Below are positions 14,610 through 39,245 of a stretch of 64,000 nucleotides of DNA, one piece after another; within the stretch, counting starts at the first letter, position 1, and each line of letters starts with the position of its first letter. The DNA comes from Hymenobacter busanensis (GTDB taxonomy: Bacteria; Bacteroidota; Bacteroidia; Cytophagales; Hymenobacteraceae): positions 186,001 through 250,000 of the forward strand of contig NZ_VTWU01000006.1 of NCBI RefSeq assembly GCF_008727865.1, in the 5' to 3' direction. The notes under the pieces are model-generated. The model was not told the DNA's origin. It was given only the letters and a program-made list of their open reading frames with translations, and did no database searches. The translations under genes and the position numbers were made by a program.

Positions 14610-14691
14610 TGCGCACGGGGAGAGTCGAACTCCCACACCCGAAGGCACCACCCCCTCAAGATGGCGTGTCTACCAATTTCACCACGTGCGC
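14610..14691 (-). tRNA. tRNA-Leu (anticodon GAG)
   Basis: On the minus strand the acceptor GCGCACG pairs with CGTGCGC over 7 bp. The D-arm follows TG as GTGAAATTGGTAGACAC, the anticodon stem CCATC/GGTGG closes the loop TTGAGGG with anticodon GAG, a long class II variable arm (GTGCCTTCGGGTG) is present, and the T-arm is GGGAGTTCGACTCTCC. Discriminator A; CCA is not encoded. The class II variable arm and layout match bacterial tRNA-Leu. Confidence 0.95.
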
Positions 14692-26888: not shown

Positions 26889-29800
26889 ATGAGCACAGTA
26901 GTACCCACGTTCTTTACATCCGGGTTTTGGCGGCGCACCTGCGGGGTGCTGGCCCTCGGCGTACTCGGGTTGGCGGCCGCACCCGCCGCCCAGGCCCAGG
27001 TGGTGTACGGCCTCTCCGGCACCGACCTCACCTCCGTAAATCTGGCCTCGCCGCTCACCTCCCAAACGCGCCAGCCCATCACGGGCATCCTGCCCGGCCA
27101 AACCCTGGTGGGCCTCGATTTCCGCCCCGCCACCGGCGAATTGTACGCCCTGGGCTACAACGCCGCCCCGGCCGACACGGCAGCCAACACGGCCAACCTC
27201 TACGTCATTACCCAGAACACCGCTACCCCCGTCGCCACGGCCACCGTGGTGGGCAGCGGCAGCAAGCTGCGCCTGGGCTCAGCCACCGACCGCATCGGGT
27301 TCGACTTCAACCCCACCGTCGACCGCATCCGCGTCGTCAGCACCAACGACAACAACTACCGCCTCAACCCCAACGACGGCGCCATCGTCGACAGCAACCC
27401 CAGCGTGGGCGGCGTGCAGCGCGACGGCAACCTGGCCTACGCCGCCGGCGACCCGAACGCGGGCCAGAACCCCTTTGTGGGGGCGGCAGCCTACACCAAC
27501 TCCTTCATCGGGGCTGCCTCCACCACCCTCTACTACATCGACGAGCAACGCTCCCTGCTGTTGCGCTCCGATGCGCCCAATGCCGGTACGCTGGCCACCG
27601 TGGCCTTATTGACCCCCTCGGCCGGCGGTAACCCCACGCCCATCAACGCTCCTGGCGCCAGCACCGACCTCGATATCTTCACCTTCGGCCCCGGCGACCA
27701 GCAGGCGTACCTGAACGTGAACCAGGTGAGCGGCGGCTCCTTCATTTCGCTCTTGTACCGGGTTAACCTGGCCGACGGCACAACCACATTCGCCGGGGCC
27801 GTCAACGGCTCGGGCGTGGGCATCACCGACATTGCCGTGCGCATCAACCGCACCGCGCCGGCCGCCAACGGTCAGCTGCTCTACGCCGTCAGCACCAACA
27901 ACAACCTGCTCAGCTTCTACTCGGGCACGCCGAACTTCATCAACTCGGCCGTGCCCATCACCGGCATTGCGGCCGGCCAAACGCTGGTGGGCACCGATTT
28001 CCGCCCCGCCACCGGGCAGCTCTACGGCTTCGGCTACGACGCTACCACCACCGGCAATAACGCCCAGTTGTACGTCATCAACCCGGCCACTGGCGCCGCT
28101 ACCTCGGTAGCCGCCGCCATCCGCCTGGAGTTGGGCGGCCTCACCGCCAACATCGGGTTCGACTTCAACCCCACCGTCGACCTCATTCGGGTGGTGAGTA
28201 CCAACCGCCGCAACTACCGCCTGAACCCCACCACCGGTGCCCTGGCCTTCACCGACGGCCTGCTCACGTACGCAGCCGGTGACACCACCACGCCGCGCAT
28301 CGGCTCGGTGGCCTACACCAACAGCTTCGCCGGTAGCACCACCACCACGCTCTACGACATCGACGAGCTGCGCAGCATCCTGGCCATTCAGGCCCCGCCC
28401 AACAACGGCACGCTCACGCCCGTGGGCAGCATTACCGGCCTGTCGCTGAACAACACCCCGGCGCTGGTTGATCTGGATATTTACTCCGTAGCCGGCAGCT
28501 CCACCAACACCGCGTTTCTGGTTGCCAACCCCAACGGCTTTACCACCAGCAACCTCTACACGCTCGACCTCACTACGGGCAACCCCTCGCTGATGGGCCC
28601 CATCGGCCTGGGCATTCCGGTGCGGGATGTCTCGGCCTTTATTGCGCCGGTCGTCACCGGCTTCACCTGGACGGGCGCCGTGAGCACCGACTGGGGCACG
28701 GCCGGCAACTGGAGCACCAACCAAGTGCCCACCGCCACCGATGACGTGACCATTCCGAACGTGGCCAACGACCCCGTGGTGAGCAACGCCCAGCAGGCCC
28801 GCAGCGTCACGCTCGGCAGCGGCGCCACCCTCACCACGACCAACGGCGGCACGCTGACCGTCAACGGCACCTTCACCAACAACGGCGGCACCACGCTGGG
28901 CAGCGGCTCGGGCACCGTGGCTTTCAACGGACCAGCGGCCCAAACCATCAGCGGCACCACCACCTTCTTCCAGAACCTCACGGCCGGCCCGGCCGGGGTA
29001 ACGGCCGCGGCCCCGGTGCAGGTGCAGCGGGTGCTGCTGCTCAACGGCAACCTGGCTTCCAACGGCAACCTGACGCTGCTCTCCAACGCCACCGGCACGG
29101 CCCACGTCATCAACGCCGCCGGCGCCGTGACGGGCAACGCCACCGTGCAACGCTCCATCAATAATGCCACGGCCCCCGTCGGCTACCGGCATTATTCGAG
29201 TCCGGTGTTGAATACCACCGTGGCCGACCTGGCCACGCCCGGCTACACGCCCGTGGTGAACCCCGACTACAACTCCCAGGGCAACACCGTCACGCCGTTC
29301 CCCACGGTGTTCGGCTACGACCAAAGCCGCGTGACGACCAGCGGCAGCCCGCGCCCCGTCGATTTCGACAAGGGCTTCTTCTCGCCTGCGTCCTTGGCCG
29401 ACCCGCTGGTGCCCGGCCGCGGCTACACGGTCAACATCCCGGCTTCCGAGACGGTCGACTTTGTGGGCGTACCCAACAACGGCTCGGTTGTTCAGGGCGC
29501 CTTGGCCCGCGGTAGCCAAACCGAGTCGGGCTGGCACCTGCTGGGCAACCCCTACCCCTCCCCCCTCAATTGGGACTTCGTGGGCCGCAGCAATATCGAC
29601 GCCGCCGTGTACGTGTACCAGCCCACGGGCCAATACGCCGGCACCTACCGCAGCTACGTCGCCAATTCCGACACCACCGGCCAGCGCGGGCTGCTGGCCG
29701 TGGCGCAGGGCTTCTTTGTGCGCGTGAGCACGCCCAACAGCAACAACGGCCAAGTGAGCTTCACCAACGCCGCGCGGCCGGGCTTCTACGCCAATCCGTC

Positions 29801-30524
29801 GTTCTCGCGCGGGGCGGGCACCAGCCCCCTGGTGCGCCTGAACCTGCGCAGCGCCAGCGGCTTGCTCGACGAAACCATGGTGTACTTCGACCCGCAGGCC
29901 ACCGCCGGTTTCGACTCGGAATACGACGCCTACAAGCTGCAGGGCGGCAGTTCCCTGCTGCTGGCAACTGAGGCCCTCGGCAACCTGCAGCTGTCCGTCA
30001 ACGGCCTGCCCGCCCTGGGCACCACCGACGCGGAAGTGAACCTGGTGGTGCAAGCCCCCGTGGGTGCCAACACCCTGGAAGTAGCGAACCTGCTCCGTCT
30101 GCCGGCCGGCACGCATGCCTACCTGCGCGACGCCCAAACCAGCGCCCTCATCGACCTGGCCGCCCAGCCCAGCTACAGCTTCACGCGGGTGGCGGGTGCG
30201 CCGGCCACGGGCCGCTTCTCGCTGCTGATTACCTCCCGCCAGGTGCTGGCCACCGCGCCGGCCGCGTTGGCGCAGCAAGTGGCGGTGTACCCCAACCCGG
30301 CCCGCAACCTGGTATCGGTGGCTTTGCCCGCCGCCCTGCGCGGCCAGGCAGTAGCGCTGACGCTGGTGAATACCCTCGGCCAAGTAGTGACGCAACGCAC
30401 CGTGCCCGCCACCCGCCCGACCGACACGGCCACGGTGCCGCTGACGGGCGTGGCCGCGGGCGTGTACACGCTGCGCCTGCAAACGGGCCAAGGCGTGGTC
30501 AACAAGCGCCTGGTAATCGAGTAA
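26889..30524 (+). CDS. large secreted protein with tandem DUF4394 domains and T9SS sorting domain
   Basis: 1211 residues. Signal peptide (LALGVLGLAAAPAAQAQ). Two DUF4394 domains in tandem, about residues 38-300 and 325-590; both show VGLDFRPATGELYALGY-type and GFDFNPTVDRIRVVSTN-type strands with NNYRLNP. A cell-surface module then begins WTGAVSTDWGTAGNWS and continues as a GxLTVNGTFTNNGG beta-helix-like stretch (about 600-760). A large region with LLGNPYPSPLNWDF follows, and the C-terminus is a T9SS type A domain (VAVYPNPARNLVSV, VTQRTVPATRP, VYTLRLQTG). Expected at the cell surface or released. Function of DUF4394 is unknown. Confidence 0.85.
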   Translation: MSTVVPTFFTSGFWRRTCGVLALGVLGLAAAPAAQAQVVYGLSGTDLTSVNLASPLTSQTRQPITGILPGQTLVGLDFRPATGELYALGYNAAPADTAANTANLYVITQNTATPVATATVVGSGSKLRLGSATDRIGFDFNPTVDRIRVVSTNDNNYRLNPNDGAIVDSNPSVGGVQRDGNLAYAAGDPNAGQNPFVGAAAYTNSFIGAASTTLYYIDEQRSLLLRSDAPNAGTLATVALLTPSAGGNPTPINAPGASTDLDIFTFGPGDQQAYLNVNQVSGGSFISLLYRVNLADGTTTFAGAVNGSGVGITDIAVRINRTAPAANGQLLYAVSTNNNLLSFYSGTPNFINSAVPITGIAAGQTLVGTDFRPATGQLYGFGYDATTTGNNAQLYVINPATGAATSVAAAIRLELGGLTANIGFDFNPTVDLIRVVSTNRRNYRLNPTTGALAFTDGLLTYAAGDTTTPRIGSVAYTNSFAGSTTTTLYDIDELRSILAIQAPPNNGTLTPVGSITGLSLNNTPALVDLDIYSVAGSSTNTAFLVANPNGFTTSNLYTLDLTTGNPSLMGPIGLGIPVRDVSAFIAPVVTGFTWTGAVSTDWGTAGNWSTNQVPTATDDVTIPNVANDPVVSNAQQARSVTLGSGATLTTTNGGTLTVNGTFTNNGGTTLGSGSGTVAFNGPAAQTISGTTTFFQNLTAGPAGVTAAAPVQVQRVLLLNGNLASNGNLTLLSNATGTAHVINAAGAVTGNATVQRSINNATAPVGYRHYSSPVLNTTVADLATPGYTPVVNPDYNSQGNTVTPFPTVFGYDQSRVTTSGSPRPVDFDKGFFSPASLADPLVPGRGYTVNIPASETVDFVGVPNNGSVVQGALARGSQTESGWHLLGNPYPSPLNWDFVGRSNIDAAVYVYQPTGQYAGTYRSYVANSDTTGQRGLLAVAQGFFVRVSTPNSNNGQVSFTNAARPGFYANPSFSRGAGTSPLVRLNLRSASGLLDETMVYFDPQATAGFDSEYDAYKLQGGSSLLLATEALGNLQLSVNGLPALGTTDAEVNLVVQAPVGANTLEVANLLRLPAGTHAYLRDAQTSALIDLAAQPSYSFTRVAGAPATGRFSLLITSRQVLATAPAALAQQVAVYPNPARNLVSVALPAALRGQAVALTLVNTLGQVVTQRTVPATRPTDTATVPLTGVAAGVYTLRLQTGQGVVNKRLVIE

Positions 30525-33028: not shown

Positions 33029-34465
33029 CTACTCCCCGCCGTACCTGCTTTTGCCCGAGCCGCCCGCGTCCATGCGCACGATGCGCGGCGTGAACGAGCC
33101 CAGCACATCCACCAAATCGCGCTGGTGCGCCATTACCTGGTGAATGTCCTTGTAGGCCATCGGGGCCTCGTCCAGCCCGCCACCAATCAGCTCCACGCCC
33201 TGGTCGCGCAAGAGCCGCCGCAGCTCGCCTTCGGTTACCTGCTGCTTGGCCTGGGTGCGCGAGAGGCGCCGCCCCGCCCCGTGCGAAGCCGACTGAATGG
33301 AATCCCGCTCGCCGCGCCCGCGCACGATGAAACCCGGTGCGGTCATGGAGCCGGGAATCACGCCCAGCACGCCCGCGCCGGCCGGCGTGGCGCCCTTGCG
33401 GTGCACCACGGCCTGGCGGCCGTCGGGCAGCTCTTCTTTCCAGGCGAAGTTGTGGTGGTTTTCTACCTTGGCCAGCACGTCCTGCCCCAGGGCTTTGGCG
33501 AGGCGGCGGTGAATGTCGCGGTGGCAGGCCGAGGCGTAGTCGCCGGCTAGGTTCATGGCCGCCCAATACTCCTGGCCTTCCTGGGTGTCGAGCCCAAGCC
33601 AAGCGAGGTAGCGGGCTTCGGGCGGCAGCGGGCACTTGTTCATGGCCACCTTGGTGTAGTGCTGGGCAATGGCCGCCCCCAACCCGCGCGAGCCAGAGTG
33701 CGAGAGCAGCCCCAGGTACTGGCCCAGCGGCAAATTCAGCTCGTTGTCCTCGGCCGTGATGTCGACGATGCCCCACTCCACAAAGTGGTTGCCGGAGCCC
33801 GACGAGCCGAGCTGGCTGATGGCCGCCTCGCGCTTGCCGCGCACCACCCCGATTTCCCGGAACTCGGGCCGCTCCAGCACCGGGTCGTCGGCGGGGTTCT
33901 TAAACACTTCCTTGTTGCCGAAGCGGGTGTGGTTGTGCAGCAGTTTCTTGAGCTCGTCGCGGCGCTGCTCCAGGTAGCGCGGCGGCACATCGAACACCGA
34001 CAGGGCCATGCGGCAGCCGATGTCCATGCCCACGCCGTAGGGAATTACCGCGTTGTCGACGGCCAGCACCCCGCCGATGGGCAGGCCGTAGCCTTGGTGC
34101 GCGTCGGGCATCAAGGCCCCGTCGATGGTGACGGGCAACTGCATGGCGGTGTCCATTTGCTTGCGCGCCCCGTCCTCAATGAAGGCGTCGCCGTAGCGGC
34201 GGTAGTCCTTGATGCTGGGGTTCAGGGCCACGTCGCGGCTCGGTTGGGGCACCAGCTCCTGGGCCAGGGGGCGCCAAACTTGGTCGCGCACGTACTTGAA
34301 GGGGTCGGCTTTTATGTCGCGCAGCAACGCTAGGGCGCTGCCTTTATCGAGTTTGCGCAGCTCGCGCTGGTCGAGAATGTCGAGGGCTAGGCTGATCTGT
34401 TTGTCGTCGGTGAAGCCGAGCTGGCGCAGGTCCTTGCCGTGGAGCTTTTGGGTGTTTTTGGCCAT
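33029..34465 (-). CDS. rtcB: RtcB family RNA ligase (copy 1)
   Basis: 478 residues, normal RtcB length. RtcB joins 2',3'-cyclic-phosphate or 3'-phosphate RNA ends to 5'-OH ends using GTP and Mn(II). Signatures: MPDAHQGYGLPIGGVLAVDNAV, Mn ligands Asp148 and Cys151 in GVGMDIGCRM, SGNHFVEWG and LLSHSGSRGLG with metal His residues, VHRKGATPAG, and His395 in SHGAGRRLSR, the residue guanylylated in the E. coli enzyme. The frame is open upstream, but the start at 34465 matches that of copy 2 (MAxxLxGxDLRxLGF). It is last of the minus-strand series PcfJ, Ro60, RNA array, rtcB copy 2, rtcB copy 1. Confidence 0.9.
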   Translation of the reverse strand: MAKNTQKLHGKDLRQLGFTDDKQISLALDILDQRELRKLDKGSALALLRDIKADPFKYVRDQVWRPLAQELVPQPSRDVALNPSIKDYRRYGDAFIEDGARKQMDTAMQLPVTIDGALMPDAHQGYGLPIGGVLAVDNAVIPYGVGMDIGCRMALSVFDVPPRYLEQRRDELKKLLHNHTRFGNKEVFKNPADDPVLERPEFREIGVVRGKREAAISQLGSSGSGNHFVEWGIVDITAEDNELNLPLGQYLGLLSHSGSRGLGAAIAQHYTKVAMNKCPLPPEARYLAWLGLDTQEGQEYWAAMNLAGDYASACHRDIHRRLAKALGQDVLAKVENHHNFAWKEELPDGRQAVVHRKGATPAGAGVLGVIPGSMTAPGFIVRGRGERDSIQSASHGAGRRLSRTQAKQQVTEGELRRLLRDQGVELIGGGLDEAPMAYKDIHQVMAHQRDLVDVLGSFTPRIVRMDAGGSGKSRYGGE

Positions 34466-34531
34466 GACGCGGGGAAAGGATGGTAATGGGTTTACCGCAG
34501 CCGCTTTCCGATAGGTTACGCCAGAACGAAA

Positions 34532-34798
34532 CTCCCCTCTTTTTTGAAGGAGGGGACCCGGCCACGCAGTGGACGCTGGGGTGGTTGCGTCGTTGCTGAG
34601 GTTGAACGACAACCAACAGCCCGTCATGCAGAGCGTAAGCGAAGCATCTCGCGTGCTGATGGCAGGTAGTGATGTTACTATCGAGGTAAACACGCGAGAT
34701 GCTTCGCTTACGCTCTGCATGACGGGCTTTATAAAGAACGACAAACCACCCCAGCGGCAGCTTCGCTACCGCGTCCCCTCCTTCAAAAAAGAGGGGAG
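34532..34798. mobile_element. nested fold-back element (MITE-like, no coding capacity)
   Basis: Three nested inverted repeats share one axis. The outer 26 bp CTCCCCTCTTTTTTGAAGG... (34532-34557) pairs with 34773-34798. The middle 13 bp CGCTGGGGTGGTT (34574-34586) pairs with its complement at 34744-34756. The inner 37-bp perfect arms are 34619-34655 and 34691-34727. The inner part is a copy of the dispersed GAAGCATCT palindrome. The symmetric layering suggests insertion of one palindromic repeat into the centre of another. No target duplication was established. Confidence 0.65.
34619..34727. repeat. dispersed palindromic repeat, 37-bp perfect arms
   Basis: Left arm core GTCATGCAGAGCGTAAGCGA then AGCATCTCGCGTG; the right arm is its exact complement after a 35-nt loop. 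Closest relative in the window: 22723-22819. Confidence 0.9.
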
Positions 34799-34817
34799 CT
34801 TGTCGTTCCATCAAGCA

Positions 34818-34850
34818 AAAACGCCCGCCGGGAATCCCGGCGGACGTTTT
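34818..34850. terminator. terminator-like hairpin after rtcB copy 2
   Basis: AAAACGCCCGCCGGGA and TCCCGGCGGACGTTTT pair with one mismatch; A and T tracts lie on both sides. It lies 18 bp beyond the stop of the minus-strand rtcB copy 2. Confidence 0.75.
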
Positions 34851-34868
34851 CACACTTCAATCAGACAG

Positions 34869-36272
34869 CTACACCCCGCCTTCCATGCGCACGATTTTCG
34901 GCGTGAAGGTGCCGAGCACGTCCACCAGCTCTTGCTGGCTTTGCATCACGGCGAAGATGTCCTTGTAGGTCATCGGCGCTTCGTCCAGCCCGCCGCCGAT
35001 GAGCTCCACGCCGTGCGCCTGCAGGTGCCGGCGCACGTCGGCTTCGCCCAACTCGGCTTTGGCACGGGTGCGCGACATCAAACGGCCCGCCCCGTGCGAG
35101 GCCGACGACAACGACTCAGCCGCGCCGCGCCCGCGCACGATGAAGCCGGGGGCCGTCATCGAGCCGGGAATGACACCCAGCACGCCCGCGCCGGCCGGCG
35201 TGGCGCCCTTGCGGTGCACGATGACCTCGCGGCCGTCGGCCAGGCGTTCTTTCCAGGCGAAGTTGTGGTGGTTTTCCACTTTTGCCAGGGGCCGCTCGCC
35301 CAGGGCTTTGGCTACGCGCTGGTGAATCTGGTGGTGGCAGGCCGAGGCGTAGTCGCCGGCCAGGTTCATGGCCGCCCAGTATTCCTGGCCGCCTTCCGAG
35401 TCGAGCGTCAGCCAGGCGAGGTGCTTGGCTTCGGCGGGCAGCTGGCAGGTGTCCATGGCGAGCTTGGTGTAGTGGTTGGCCACGCTGGCGCCCAGGCCGC
35501 GGGAGCCGGAGTGCGAGAGCAGCCCCACGTACTGCCCCACGGGCAGCCCCATTTCGTTGGTCGGGTCGAGGATTTCGACGATGCCGAACTCCACGAAGTG
35601 GTTGCCGCCGCCGGAGGTACCAATTTGCGCCGCTGCTGTTTCCTGCTTGTTGCGCAGGAAGGGAATCGTGGCAAATTCGTCGCGCTCCAGCACCGCGTGA
35701 CCCAGCTTCTGCCCGTGCCGAAACACGTCGCGGTTGCCGAACTTGGTGGTAGCTAGCAGCACCGCTTTCAGCTCCTGCACGCGCTGGGCGAGGTACTGGG
35801 GCGGTAGCGGGAAGATGGACAAGGCCATCCGGCACCCGATGTCGACACCCACGGCGTAGGGAATCACGGCGTTGTCGGTAGCCAGCACCCCACCGATGGG
35901 CAGGCCGTAGCCGAAGTGGGCGTCGGGCATGAGCGCACCGCCCACGGTAACGGGCAGTTTCATGGCCGTTTCCATCTGGTGCACCGCGCCCGGCTCGATG
36001 TACTCGCTGCCGAAGGTGACGTAGTCTTTGCGTGCCGTCAGCTCGATGTGGCGGTTGGGCGGGGGCAGCAAAGCCGCCGCGGTGTGGCTCCAGTCGAGGT
36101 CGGTGAGGAAATTGGTGGGGGTTTGCAGAATCAGTTTGAGCAAGGCCAGCTGGTCCGTCTGCGAAAGACGCTTCAGGTGCTTGCGCTGCAATTGCGCTAA
36201 AGCCAGCCCAATGGCGCGGCCTTCCGGGAAACCCAGTTCCCGCAAGTCGTTGCCGCGTAGTTGTTGTGCCAT
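34869..36272 (-). CDS. rtcB: RtcB family RNA ligase (copy 2)
   Basis: 467 residues, a paralogue of the adjacent copy 1 with the same layout and a full active site: MPDAHFGYGLPIGGVLATDNAV, Asp144 and Cys147 in GVDIGCRM, GGNHFVEFG, LLSHSGSRGLG, VHRKGATPAG, and the guanylylated His393 in SHGAGRLMSR. The two differ clearly through the N-terminal 100 residues, so they are old paralogues rather than a recent copy. This gene lies directly downstream of the Y RNA-like array and Ro60 on the same strand, the arrangement seen with bacterial rsr-Y RNA-rtcB loci. No RtcA or archease gene is in the window. Confidence 0.92.
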   Translation of the reverse strand: MAQQLRGNDLRELGFPEGRAIGLALAQLQRKHLKRLSQTDQLALLKLILQTPTNFLTDLDWSHTAAALLPPPNRHIELTARKDYVTFGSEYIEPGAVHQMETAMKLPVTVGGALMPDAHFGYGLPIGGVLATDNAVIPYAVGVDIGCRMALSIFPLPPQYLAQRVQELKAVLLATTKFGNRDVFRHGQKLGHAVLERDEFATIPFLRNKQETAAAQIGTSGGGNHFVEFGIVEILDPTNEMGLPVGQYVGLLSHSGSRGLGASVANHYTKLAMDTCQLPAEAKHLAWLTLDSEGGQEYWAAMNLAGDYASACHHQIHQRVAKALGERPLAKVENHHNFAWKERLADGREVIVHRKGATPAGAGVLGVIPGSMTAPGFIVRGRGAAESLSSASHGAGRLMSRTRAKAELGEADVRRHLQAHGVELIGGGLDEAPMTYKDIFAVMQSQQELVDVLGTFTPKIVRMEGGV

Positions 36273-36353: not shown

Positions 36354-36375
36354 GGCCGCAAATGATTGAAAAACA

Positions 36376-36483
36376 AGCCCGACCGGGCCGGAGCAACGGG
36401 CGCGGCGCGTACTGGGTGGGTACCGGCAAGGGCACTTCCCGACGTGGCAGATCGAAGCAACGCGCTGCTACGGCCAGTGGGCT
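36376..36483 (-). ncRNA. Y RNA-like unit 8 (short type, no T-arm)
   Basis: Last unit of the array. The terminal helix pairs AGCCC/GGGCT and CTGG/CCGG; the motif strand is GGCCGTAG and the opposite strand GTTGCTCC, variants of the array consensus. A second stem GCGCGT (36460-36465) / ACGCGC (36405-36410) is followed by TGCTTCG, matching the conserved TTACTTCG. The distal part is about 45 nt and lacks a T-arm. The helix runs into a T-run (36369-36373), an intrinsic terminator for the array. Confidence 0.65.
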
Positions 36484-36586
36484 GGGGCACAGCGAAGGGT
36501 AACCGGCGGGTGCCTGCTATGCCGAGAGGGAAGGTTTTTCCCCAACGGCCCGAAGTATGGCAGCCCTACGACACCTTCGCTTCCCC
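36484..36586 (-). ncRNA. Y RNA-like unit 7 (short type, no T-arm)
   Basis: Terminal helix AGCGAAGG (36574-36581) / CCTTCGCT (36491-36498), extended by GGGG/CCCC at 36583-36586 and 36484-36487. Motif strands GGTGTCGTAG and GGTTACCC match the array consensus with single changes, and CCATACTTCG follows. The distal part is about 35 nt, with a G-rich/C-rich hairpin in place of the tRNA-like body. Confidence 0.65.
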
Positions 36587-36595
36587 GAGAAAATG

Positions 36596-36734
36596 TGATT
36601 GGGCGACAAGCCGCGCAGCCCTTTCTCTTCCTGCTTTACCACATCAGCCACGGTTGGTCTACAACACAACCGGCGGGAGTCGAACCCGCATCCAGAAGTT
36701 AACGCGAAGGATGGCTGCGCTACGGCACCAATCA
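36596..36734 (-). ncRNA. Y RNA-like unit 6 with permuted tRNA-like body
   Basis: Terminal helix TGATTGG (36728-36734) / CCAATCA (36596-36602); motif strands GGTGCCGTAG and TTGTCGCCC. Stem II GCGCAGCC (36713-36720) / GGCTGCGC (36613-36620) is perfect over 8 bp. The body carries a hairpin ATCC/GGAT, the T-arm GCGGG-TTCGACT-CCCGC (36673-36689), then acceptor strands CGGTTG and CAACCG joined by a short loop, then a D-arm-like GCTGATGTGGTAAAGCAG. Confidence 0.8.
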
Positions 36735-36735
36735 G

Positions 36736-36896
36736 AAAAAAAGCTGCTTGCCGGGGCAACACGCGGCGGGCGTTGCCGACGCTCCGCAACCGGGGCGTCG
36801 CTTGCCACCGCTGCGGCGGCAAGCTGCGGGACTTGAACCCGCTCGTTCCGAAGAACTCACCGAAGTAACGCCGACCTACGGCACCCGGCAAGCAGC
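36736..36896 (-). ncRNA. Y RNA-like unit 5 with permuted tRNA-like body and T-run
   Basis: Best closed unit: terminal helix GCTGCTTGCCGGG (36884-36896) / CCCGGCAAGCAGC (36743-36755), 13 bp perfect, followed at once by seven T (36736-36742), a textbook intrinsic terminator. Motif strands GGGTGCCGTAG and GTTGCCCC; stem GGCGTT/AACGCC; TTACTTCG. Body: hairpin GTTC-TTCG-GAAC, T-arm GCGGG-TTCAAGT-CCCGC (36826-36842), acceptor GCTTGCC (36818-36824) perfectly paired with GGCAAGC (36800-36806) through an 11-nt linker, D-stem GACGC/GCGTC. Confidence 0.85.
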
Positions 36897-36904
36897 AACA
36901 ATTA

Positions 36905-37050
36905 TTCGTTGGGGCAACTGGGCGCCCAGCCTACGTGTCCTGCTCTAACCAACTGAGCTACCGCTGAATCGAAGTTCAACGAGCGGGACTCGAACCCGCG
37001 ACCTGGGCGGTGACAGCGCGAAGTAAGGCTGGGCTACGGCACCCAACGAA
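36905..37050 (-). ncRNA. Y RNA-like unit 4 with permuted tRNA-like body
   Basis: Terminal helix TTCGTTGGG (37042-37050) / CCCAACGAA (36905-36913); motif strands GGGTGCCGTAG and AGTTGCCCC. Stem II GCCCAGCC (37027-37034) / GGCTGGGC (36924-36931) is perfect. T-arm GCGGG-TTCGAGT-CCCGC (36983-36999); acceptor TCGTTGA pairs with TCAGCGG (two G-U) across the 8-nt loop ACTTCGAT. A textbook tRNA D-arm follows: TA-GCTC-AGTTGGTTA-GAGC. The order T-arm, acceptor, D-arm is the reverse of a tRNA gene. Confidence 0.85.
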
Positions 37051-37051
37051 A

Positions 37052-37196
37052 CGCAACAAGGCAACAACGGTCTAGCCACGGCGCTGCCCTACCAATGCGC
37101 AGTTGCAATGCGTCCAGAGAAGCATCACTTCGGGAGTCGAACCCGCGACAGAACCTATGTGGAGCGAAGAATGGCTAAGCAACGGCACTTGCTGCG
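37052..37196 (-). ncRNA. Y RNA-like unit 3 with permuted tRNA-like body
   Basis: Terminal helix CGCAGCAAG (37188-37196) / CTTGTTGCG (37052-37060), one G-U; motif strands AAGTGCCGTTG and GTTGTTGCC. Stem II TTAGCCA (37172-37178) / TGGCTAG (37072-37078). T-arm CGGG-TTCGACT-CCCG (37131-37145), acceptor GTGATGC (37122-37128) with GCATTGC (37105-37111, two G-U), linker 10 nt, then AA and D-arm CTGC-GCATTGGTAGG-GCAG. Only 1 nt separates it from unit 4. Confidence 0.82.
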
Positions 37197-37209
37197 GGTA
37201 ATAACTCTA

Positions 37210-37339
37210 CGTCGGGGCAACAAGGCGCCTGCGACATCTGCTCTACCAGCTGAGCTACAGACCCGAACCTCGGACGCCCGAAAGTCTGACACGAATCGAA
37301 CGTATGACCCGAAGTAACGCGTGGCTACGGCACCCGACG
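37210..37339 (-). ncRNA. Y RNA-like unit 2 with permuted tRNA-like body
   Basis: Terminal helix CGTCGGG (37333-37339) / CCCGACG (37210-37216); motif strands GGGTGCCGTAG and TTGTTGCCCC; GCGTTACTTCG follows. T-arm ATACG-TTCGATT-CGTGT (37289-37305) retains pairing despite base changes. Acceptor CAGACTT (37282-37288) pairs with GGGTCTG (37258-37264) over 7 bp with two G-U; the linker folds as TCGG-GCGT-CCGA. The D-arm is tRNA-perfect: TA-GCTC-AGCTGGTA-GAGC. Confidence 0.85.
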
Positions 37340-37373
37340 AGGTATCCTGATTTTCTCCCGCCAACCCCATCAT

Positions 37374-37521
37374 CTTACCGGGGCTACTGGCAACAAGCGA
37401 AACGTTTTCGTTGGCCGGCACTGCGCCAGCCGCGGGATTCGAACCCGCGCGATACAGCAACCGTTGCACTGCACCCGAAAACCAGACCGCGAAGTAACGC
37501 CCGTCTACGGCACCCGGAAAG
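37374..37521 (-). ncRNA. Y RNA-like unit 1 (first in the array), divergent tRNA-like body
   Basis: Terminal helix CTTTCCGGG (37513-37521) / CCCGGTAAG (37374-37382), one mismatch; motif strands GGGTGCCGTAG and TTGTTGCC; GCGTTACTTCG follows. T-arm GCGGG-TTCGAAT-CCCGC (37432-37448), acceptor GGCTGGC (37425-37431) with GCCGGCC (37413-37419, one G-U) and a 5-nt loop GCAGT. The D-arm is replaced by a short hairpin CGAAA-ACG-TTTCG, and extra bases lie between the T-arm and the 5' motif. Confidence 0.75.
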
Positions 37522-37670: not shown

Positions 37671-39200
37671 TTAGAGTTCAATTTTTTCGATTTCGGTCAG
37701 GGCCGAGCCGCCGTTTTCCAGCGCCTGCAGCACGTCGAATACTTTGTCGGACCAGCCGGCAATCAGGGCCACGCCGTTTTCGGGCTTCACCTGCACCGGC
37801 ACGTTGCCGTGGCCGGCCAGGTCGAAGAGGTAGAGGCGGGCCTGCGGGGCCACTGTGCGGCGGTATTCGCGCCACTCCTGGGCTAGCGTGGTGCCCTGGC
37901 CGGTGCTGTCCCAGAGTTGGCAGTCGGTGAAAATCATCACCTTGTCGGCCACCTCGCGACGCTGGCGCAGGTCCTGCACCACCAGGTAGCCGTTGGTGCT
38001 GTAGCCCACCTCGCCTTCGCGCCGGTAGAACTCCTGCACGTTGCGCAGCACCTGGCCTTTTGGCAGGGCTACGCGCTTCCAGGTGTCGCCGAACATGCCG
38101 GTTACCACGTGCCCGCAGCGGCTTTGCAGCAGCATGCCCAGCACCAGGCCCACGTCGTAGAGCAGCACTTTGCTGCGCTGAGACACCGGCTGCTGCATGG
38201 AGCCCGATACGTCGCAGGCTACCACCACGCGGGTTTCAGCCCCGAAACCGCGCAGGTTCTGGATGGAATGCCCGATGGCCGTTTCCAGCGCCTGGAGCAC
38301 CAGCGCCGTGTACCCCGAGCGCAGCGGCAGCAGTTCGCGGTAGGCCGCCAGGTAGCGGAACGGCAGCTGCTTGCTGCGCGCCACCGCGCCGGCATCGGTC
38401 AGCGCGGCCACCACTTGCTCCACCGCCGCCGCCGACACGTCGGCTTCGAGGATGTTGCGCAGGTTGCGCAGCAGGGCCATGTAGCCCAGCTTGTCGCTGC
38501 CGATCAGCGTTTCCCACTTCCGGCGGAAGGCCGTCTGCCGTTCTGCCGCCGAAGCGAACTGCTGCTGTCCCAGGGCCGACAGCTCGGTTTCCCAGGTGTA
38601 AGGCGTTGGCAATTCGCCGCGCACAAGCTGGTCGAACAAGGCTTGCTGCGCGGCGCTTTTGGCTTGCGGGTGCACCAAGAACAGCGCATCGCGCAGGCGC
38701 ACCTGCCCAGCGCGGTCGTACTTGGCCAGCTGGTAGCCATCGAAGCGATTGAAAGCCAAGGCCAACCCTTTCTGCAGCTGCTTCGAGAGGCGGTTGAGGG
38801 TTTTGGGGCCCTGCCGCTGGTTGGCCACAGCATAGAAGGCGAGCAGCTCGGTAATCTCGTCGGCCCGCTGCACCACGCGGGCCACGAGGCGGCTCACCAG
38901 GACGTCGCCGCGGTGCACCTGGGCCAGCTCCACGGCCAGCACCAGGGGTACCGAACGCAGGTAGAGCTGCTCGCGGGCGTACACGGCCAACTGAGCCACA
39001 AAGCGCGGGTCGTTTTGCCGCACCAGCTCGCGCAGGCGCTGCAGGCGGGTACCAGCCGTTTCGTAGAACTGGTCGCTGAGCGCGGCGGTGGCCACGGCGG
39101 CGTAGAGTTCCAGCGCCGGCGTCAGCTGGTAGGCCAGCGCGCCTTCGTGGTTGAGCACCGGGGCGGGCTTGTTTTTGCGGAAGCTGAAGTTGAAGCGCAT
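37671..39200 (-). CDS. rsr: Ro60/Rsr homologue (TROVE + VWA)
   Basis: 509 residues. The N-terminal TROVE domain (about 1-320) is a ring of helical repeats; typical segments are NHEGALAYQLTPALELYAAVATA, DPRFVAQLAVYAREQLYLRSVPLVLAVELA and GYMALLRNLRNILEA. The C-terminal von Willebrand A domain (about 322-505) has the MIDAS motif DVSGSM starting at Asp330 and VMIFTDCQLWD. Ro60 binds Y RNAs on its outer surface and the 3' ends of misfolded RNAs through its central hole. The start at 39200 is favoured because family members begin M(K/R)FNFSF. It is followed on the same strand by the Y RNA-like array and two rtcB genes, and preceded by a PcfJ-like gene 45 bp upstream. Confidence 0.93.
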   Translation of the reverse strand: MRFNFSFRKNKPAPVLNHEGALAYQLTPALELYAAVATAALSDQFYETAGTRLQRLRELVRQNDPRFVAQLAVYAREQLYLRSVPLVLAVELAQVHRGDVLVSRLVARVVQRADEITELLAFYAVANQRQGPKTLNRLSKQLQKGLALAFNRFDGYQLAKYDRAGQVRLRDALFLVHPQAKSAAQQALFDQLVRGELPTPYTWETELSALGQQQFASAAERQTAFRRKWETLIGSDKLGYMALLRNLRNILEADVSAAAVEQVVAALTDAGAVARSKQLPFRYLAAYRELLPLRSGYTALVLQALETAIGHSIQNLRGFGAETRVVVACDVSGSMQQPVSQRSKVLLYDVGLVLGMLLQSRCGHVVTGMFGDTWKRVALPKGQVLRNVQEFYRREGEVGYSTNGYLVVQDLRQRREVADKVMIFTDCQLWDSTGQGTTLAQEWREYRRTVAPQARLYLFDLAGHGNVPVQVKPENGVALIAGWSDKVFDVLQALENGGSALTEIEKIEL

Positions 39201-39245
39201 AGCAGTGGGCAATAGGCAGTGGGGAAAGGCGACGCCGTTGGCGCG

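Follow-up and report, generated by a model that had tools for sequence, protein, structure and literature searches.

Y RNAs that carry a tRNA-like domain and lie beside Ro60 and RtcB are an already known kind of bacterial RNA, and some species reportedly possess more than one Y RNA, as noted by Chen in 2014. For YrlA (Rfam RF02553), Hughes et al. (2020) proposed a possible role as competitive inhibitor of an anticodon nuclease, although the RNA itself was uncut (excerpt of PMC7790460). The Rfam consensus of YrlA shows no anticodon hairpin. Here, an array of eight Y RNA-like RNAs was analyzed in a stretch of 64,000 nucleotides from Hymenobacter busanensis (NZ_VTWU01000006.1, positions 186,001 to 250,000; this whole stretch is called the window, and positions are counted from its first letter). 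The locus runs on the minus strand from 39212 to 33029 in the order Ro60, eight RNA units, RtcB and RtcB, and all eight units fit in the 1.4 kb that separates Ro60 from the first RtcB. One of them, unit 4, comprises a circularly permuted tRNA mimic complete with an anticodon arm, a feature missing from the initial annotation.

The units share the marks of bacterial Y RNAs. In the window as in relatives, the arrays are located downstream of Ro60; the terminal stem of the units is long and bears a conserved bulged element, and at least one member contains a tRNA-like domain. A tRNA gene has an open acceptor and a CCA-capable 3′ end; the acceptor of unit 4 is instead a closed hairpin of 22 nt, and ARAGORN called no tRNA within the window's array. 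At a lax threshold, the YrlA model matched units 4, 2, and 6 with E-values of 7.8e-6, 1.1e-4, and 3.2e-3 (best score 36.1 bits), and it also matched units of relatives at 35.3 bits (L013; E 1.6e-5) and 49.4 bits (Pontibacter locus L065; E 5.9e-10). Every score was below the gathering score of 69 bits, and the units were not assigned to RF02553; the matches to this Y RNA family are thus significant but below threshold. A Rfam scan at the gathering score gave no matches in the window or in ten relatives, but these zeros are weak evidence because the window's own tRNA-Leu was missed by that scan, and the lax scans were relied on instead. In both the lax scan and a search of the genome, this tRNA-Leu (14610-14691, minus strand) reached 48.2 bits, against a gathering score of 29.

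The inner part of the units consists, in this order, of a T arm, a closed acceptor hairpin, a dinucleotide that is mostly UA, and a D arm. Such an arrangement results when a tRNA is closed at the acceptor and has its opening in the anticodon stem instead. The relatives comprised the best 80 of 440 loci from a Ro60 search. Four of them, all metagenome assemblies (L081, L083, L084, and L089), have apparently genuine tRNA gene arrays downstream of Ro60; they were left out of the counts of modules, anchored arms, anticodon switching and strict-parser matches, which leaves 76 loci. A strict parser, requiring a T arm, an acceptor of at least 5 pairs, U at base 8, a D arm with GG and the pair 15-48, found 180 modules on the sense strand after Ro60, none on the antisense strand and none upstream on either strand. 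Since this parser demands the pair 15-48, covariation there was counted in a set not selected for it: among 191 modules with A14, the pair was G15-C48 in 141, A15-U48 in 40 and other in 10. The changes on both sides indicated that a tertiary contact of real tRNAs is kept. On both strands of the whole window, the strict parser found only units 2 and 4. A looser parser also picked up unit 6, as well as a match in unit 1 that was taken as an artefact. Units 3 and 5 have a looser T/acceptor/D module, read by eye, and on inspection no tRNA module was seen in units 7 and 8.

Unit 4 (36903-37053, minus strand; terminal helix TTCGTTGGG/CCCAACGAA) has a 3-bp hairpin with a 7-nt loop immediately 5′ of the variable loop. 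This anticodon arm (37005-37019, minus strand) reads GCG-CTGTCAC-CGC followed by CC (bases 42-43). The remainder of the mimic (36939-37004, minus strand) comprises the variable loop AGGTC, the T arm, the closed acceptor hairpin, UA (8-9), the D arm, A26 and GG (27-28). The GG at 36939-36940, after the D arm, can pair with bases 42-43. With these two pairs the hairpin becomes a tRNA anticodon stem of 5 bp that is interrupted between 28 and 29, the point at which the Y stem joins. An anchored pattern, which constrains the 5′ strand of the stem and leaves the loop free, collected 58 such units in 52 loci; the 3-bp stem was present in 55, U33 in 56 and a purine at 37 in 56. Both pairs of 27-28 with 42-43 form in 81 of 85 modules, and in 66 of the 67 that have U33 and purine 37, against 0.36 in a cross-partner control. 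Eight combinations were seen (GG/CC, CA/TG, GA/TC, CC/GG, CG/CG, GC/GC, TC/GA, and CG/TG). This count excluded all overlaps with ARAGORN calls, ARAGORN misreading several units, and two of the 81 modules come from loci dropped from the later counts. In a wider set for which the arm was required, it was present in 76 of 184 modules and in 59 of the 76 loci. The variability in the unit 4 alignment was 1.28, 0.90, and 0.89 bits at the anticodon, 1.07 at position 38, 0.34 at position 33 and 0.17 at position 37.

In the window, unit 4 has the loop CTGTCAC, exactly the loop of the host tRNA-Asp(GTC). Six of the 24 distinct loops in the anchored set equal tRNA loops of the window genome (Asp, Asn, Lys, His, Glu, and Gln), whereas column shuffles of the 24 loops gave a mean of 2.0 and reached six in 42 of 10000. 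The triple 36-37-38 was present in host tRNAs for 19 of 24 loops (shuffle mean 13.6; none of 10000 as high), and A36 occurred in one loop. In the wider set, seven of 36 distinct loops equal a host tRNA loop (shuffle mean 1.9; 6 of 10000 reach seven). Two other tRNA references were set aside: loops pooled from all loci were contaminated by ARAGORN misreadings, and a set from five relatives was too small. A wholesale capture of tRNA-Asp by unit 4 was also rejected. Its variable loop and T arm match host tRNA-Asp at 21 of 22 positions, but only its anticodon loop is special because the unit 4 consensus already matches at 20 of these 22.

When the anticodons were mapped onto a quick Ro60 tree with 52 tips, at least 27 changes were needed among 16 or 18 triplets, depending on the unit chosen in six two-unit loci; the minimum of 27 was unaffected by this choice. 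The 46 one-unit loci carried 15 triplets, the commonest being TTT (22 of 46), and required 23 changes, compared with a mean of 23.4 and a minimum of 20 for shuffled labels. With about as many changes as shuffled labels need, the triplet thus keeps no visible record of descent on this tree, which fast switching, recombination of units or poor resolution of the tree could each explain. The control supports labile anticodons and would equally allow drift.

The same device was found in phages. In the best 80 of 230 Ro60 loci on IMG/VR contigs, 34 modules in 33 loci passed the filter for pair 15-48, and 17 had the anticodon arm. All 34 were on the Ro60 strand, both strands having been scanned; some of these loci are near copies of one another, and at least one module (L189) looks spurious. 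Fourteen viral records, part of 95 phage records matching Ro60, were examined individually. CcrColossus, CcrPW, Kikimora, and Gurke have an arm-bearing unit, Bambus has modules without the full arm, and csAssE has one such module. On scanning, no module was found in LR745206, HGTV-1, phiLo or phiKT1024, and no anticodon arm in Marchewka, Kabachok or Domovoi; a single match in crAss001 was taken for chance. The units of CcrColossus and CcrPW, two related phages, are nearly identical letter for letter, and their arm, variable loop and T arm differ in only two anticodon bases, giving CTG (Gln) in CcrColossus and TAG (Leu) in CcrPW. The phage records label these units as tRNA-Gln (CcrColossus) and tRNA-Ser (Kikimora and Gurke), and the annotated tRNA-Gln or tRNA-Ser genes overlap anticodon-bearing Y units (L279:1128-1195, L278:1766-1840, and L286:1766-1840). 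It is suggested that some tRNA calls beside TROVE genes, such as these, are mis-annotated Y RNAs.

The reading that we favor, tentatively, is that the region is an array of eight Y RNA-like RNAs, several of which are tRNA mimics displayed by Ro60, the anticodon-bearing ones acting as bait for enzymes that read anticodons. It would build on the anatomy and conservation of the units, the tertiary covariation, the tRNA-like loop rules and the frequent change of anticodon, all of them read from sequence. By analogy with Y RNAs (excerpt of PMC4726728), Ro60 would bind each unit at its terminal helix together with the bulged GTGCCGTAG/GTTGC element, and would present a set of tRNA surfaces, several units having the permuted tRNA fold at the far end. 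Permutation at 28|29 leaves unit 4 with an intact anticodon stem of 5 bp and a 7-nt loop like that of a tRNA, and this mimic should not be chargeable because its acceptor stem is sealed by a loop. The anticodon-bearing units may thereby serve as bait for, or competitive inhibitors of, anticodon-loop readers. The most likely targets would be anticodon nucleases of toxins, defense systems or phages; these are favored because the anticodon changes while the loop geometry is kept, because the neighboring RtcB is a ligase that repairs tRNAs and because the device also occurs in phages. The adjacent RtcB could reseal tRNAs or mimics that have been nicked, and the changing anticodon would follow whichever tRNA is attacked. 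The units without an arm may tether other tRNA-binding effectors, like PNPase in Deinococcus. More doubtful is the broader proposal of rapidly changing anticodon decoys at the Ro60 loci of both bacteria and jumbo phages. These would be Y RNAs in the form of permuted tRNAs with a genuine anticodon loop; they would lie within an RNA-repair locus, and their amino-acid identities would be swapped in an arms race with anticodon nucleases. A changing tRNA-like anticodon provides a direct and cheap test of which enzyme reads a Y RNA. If the decoy reading is true, loci of Ro60 and RtcB belong to the tRNA conflict among bacteria, toxins and phages.

Several observations weigh against the decoy reading. 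The arm is present in only one of the eight window units, and position 38 is as variable as the anticodon. Eighteen of the 24 distinct loops lack a counterpart among the tRNA loops of the window genome, which is a mere proxy for the other genomes, and the shuffle counts are rough because related rows are not independent. Neutral drift of the triplet, recombination among units or a poor tree could also account for the absent phylogenetic signal. In addition, the anticodon nuclease left YrlA of Salmonella uncut (excerpt of PMC7790460), although the Rfam consensus of YrlA lacks an anticodon hairpin.

The sparse arm, the unmatched loops and the seemingly random labels on the Ro60 tree speak for the strongest alternative, namely that these are ordinary Y RNAs in greater number, whose tRNA modules connect Ro60 with PNPase or a different nuclease as in the Ro60-Y RNA-PNPase complex (RYPER), while the arm only stabilizes the fold and the triplet drifts. 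Tethering of PNPase by Y RNA is described for Deinococcus (excerpts of PMC8394870 and PMC4726728), and U33 and purine 37 could persist for structural reasons alone. However, free drift would not keep the 36-37-38 combinations, which no shuffle equaled, nor give six exact loops where 2.0 are expected, and we consider this explanation unlikely, though a serious one.

An improbable explanation is that the arm serves tRNA-modifying enzymes, the mimics being modified (t6A37, m1G37 or others) or titrating or recruiting these enzymes. Many loops contain U36-A37 or G36-G37, which are the marks for the t6A and m1G enzymes, respectively. Moreover, DusA and TruB act on Salmonella YrlA (excerpt of PMC8394870). 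Modification leaves unexplained why the whole anticodon changes between relatives, or between two phages.

The units might also be permuted tRNA genes. Their transcripts would then be cut open at the acceptor, and RtcB would join the ends at the anticodon arm to yield working tRNAs. This agrees with the permuted order, the canonical tertiary pair and the neighboring RtcB, and ARAGORN calls some units of relatives tRNA-Lys, Arg, Leu, Gly or Pro. Yet the acceptor forms an unbroken hairpin closed by a small loop, so that a discriminator base and CCA would not fit. The D arms are mostly GCTC..GAGC irrespective of the anticodon, and the Y stem would need to be removed, so that working tRNAs are a very improbable product.

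The array itself was assessed with a descriptor that combines the 5′ motif, a 3′ GTTGC-like motif and a helix joining the flanks, and that was designed with the window units in view. It recovered units 1-7 (chain score 37.8), compared with a mean of 1.2 units, a maximum of 4 units and a maximum score of 11.4 in 300 dinucleotide shuffles. This agreed with the initial annotation, which had read eight Y RNA-like units between Ro60 and RtcB on the minus strand; unit 8 was missed by the descriptor, has an interrupted helix in folds and needs a looser reading. The best 1.4-kb tile elsewhere in the window (27642-28956, minus strand) scored 21.9 with 5 units inside the coding ORF 26889-30524. These hits are probably a by-product of coding sequence, and single descriptor hits carry little weight because a coding tile scores so high.

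It had also been claimed that every unit is closed by its own terminal helix and that these helices covary. The first point was exact for the six helices listed for units 2-7, but not for unit 1, whose continuous helix is just 5 bp long and shifted in register, nor for the interrupted helix of unit 8. The second held. Relatives picked by inner sequence alone numbered 16, 18, 86, 12, 31, and 1 for units 2-7, in partly overlapping groups, and most variable positions of their terminal helices paired more often than the cross-partner control; the pairs at the junction hardly varied, and unit 7 had one relative only. In the 86 relatives of unit 4, the fifth position of the helix paired at 0.71 vs. 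0.37 for cross-partners. In an alignment of 39 unit 4 orthologues, both sides had changed in 22 of 42 pairs, and 95.5% of cells were paired vs. 82.2 after shuffling and 35-47 when slid; the covariation score was 0.408 vs. 0.163, reached by none of 500 shuffles. These 39 rows are units selected by the descriptor, which favors the terminal helix but not the inner helices. Free energy set against shuffles in six of the eight units was low only for unit 7 (z -2.9), the others having z -0.5 to -1.1. Promoter scans gave little information: no sigma-70 site was found, and the array had no match to a Bacteroidetes-type pattern.

In the relatives, the stretches after Ro60 (up to RtcB or 2.5 kb; 163,134 bases) contained 411 descriptor units, compared with 61 in one dinucleotide shuffle, 72 on the antisense strand and 68 in the upstream stretches (159,031 bases). 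As had been predicted, units lie beside rsr in close relatives: each of 54 Hymenobacter loci has 3-12 units, with a mode of 6 and about 0.8 expected by chance. The single Solirubrum locus has 6, and the remaining 25 loci have 1-6. The unit number is thus expanded, as the initial annotation had it, but this is normal across Hymenobacter and nothing special to this genome. By best matches, the unit order of the window is broadly kept across the genus, although 93 of the 411 units were unmatched and some labels repeat or swap. The units are therefore distinct paralogues, and the idea that they are interchangeable partners of one Ro60 was not supported. A covariance model of unit 4 gave matches in 253 of 395 genomes of the phylum, reaching at least 70 bits in 21; all four genomes listed for the window's family were among the 21. 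Most of the weak matches (model positions 35-117) were taken as adjacent real tRNAs, the T arm of one joined with the D arm of the next. That the units are chance repeats or a misread coding region is a negligible possibility: single descriptor units do arise by chance, as the shuffled, antisense and upstream counts and the coding tile show, but strict modules are absent from the antisense and upstream sequences, and the helices covary.

All other units are likewise on the minus strand. Unit 1 (37374-37520) has a T arm, an acceptor-like hairpin, an extra hairpin 5′ of the T arm and a GTTTTC/GAAAAC stem; no D arm was recognized, and its orthologues, judged by eye in an alignment, share these features and resemble a tRNA with a long variable arm. 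Unit 2 (37206-37341) has the terminal helix CGTCGGG/CCCGACG and the permuted T-acceptor-D module. Unit 3 (37050-37198; CGCAGCAAG/CTTGTTGCG) has a T arm, an acceptor hairpin and, by eye, a D-like arm. Unit 5 (36741-36896; GCTGCTTGCCGGG/CCCGGCAAGCAGC) has a T arm, an acceptor hairpin and, by eye, a D-like hairpin, followed by T7. Unit 6 (36593-36736; TGATTGG/CCAATCA) contains the T-acceptor-D module. Unit 7 (36488-36582; AGCGAAGG/CCTTCGCT) is short, and unit 8 (36370-36490) is divergent with a T-rich tail. The 5′ motif was found at 37513, 37333, 37042, 36884, 36728, 36574, and 36477, the last by a variant pattern, and unit 3 has a variant at about 37187.

Ro60 (Rsr; 37671-39212, minus strand; 513 aa) matched the Pfam domains TROVE (E 4e-28) and vWA_Ro60 (E 3e-7) and is similar to the solved TROVE proteins 9l5y and 9kop (E 1e-28). 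The two RtcB RNA ligases, also on the minus strand, are located at 34869-36272 (Pfam RtcB, E 2.6e-81) and 33029-34744 (E 5.4e-79), the real start of the second probably lying downstream of the ORF start. This tandem pair (33029-36272) places RtcB next to the array, as in the RNA repair operon rsr-yrl-rtcBA; neither RtcA nor RtcR was found among the six ORFs scanned by Pfam, the rest of the genome not having been searched for them. A further RtcB match was nearby in several relatives too. Directly upstream of Ro60 lies a PcfJ-like protein (PF14284; 39246-40544, minus strand), and six relatives have an ORF of one cluster within the array gap, the L052 copy being PcfJ-like by Pfam. Another ORF (L054:7619-8557) has a microbial PARG catalytic domain (PF10021, E 2e-46); its cluster lies between Ro60 and RtcB in 18 loci and may be part of an RNA-repair locus.

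None of the titles and abstract openings searched reported Y RNAs that have an anticodon arm, switch their anticodon or form such arrays, and an earlier mention is possible. The permuted tRNA genes of algae and archaea also have the 3′ half before the 5′ half; here, by contrast, the acceptor hairpin is sealed, and a working tRNA product is very improbable. With tmRNA and other tRNA mimics the units share a kept tRNA elbow; they differ in having no tRNA-like 3′ end, a permuted order and a Ro60 stem attached inside the anticodon stem. In the excerpted accounts of Deinococcus RYPER, the Y RNA is likewise a tether of Ro60; the array and the anticodon loops are different. YrlA and the other bacterial Y RNAs of RF02553 are similar in their Ro60 neighbor, their terminal Ro60-type stem and the order of T arm, closed acceptor and D arm, and the Salmonella YrlA operon also includes RtcB (excerpt of PMC7790460). 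Compared with YrlA, the loci described here have up to eight or more ordered paralogues with scores below the gathering score, and the unit 4 class adds an anticodon arm. To judge from the sequences, the Bacteroidota and phage forms would supply the anticodon that is missing from YrlA.

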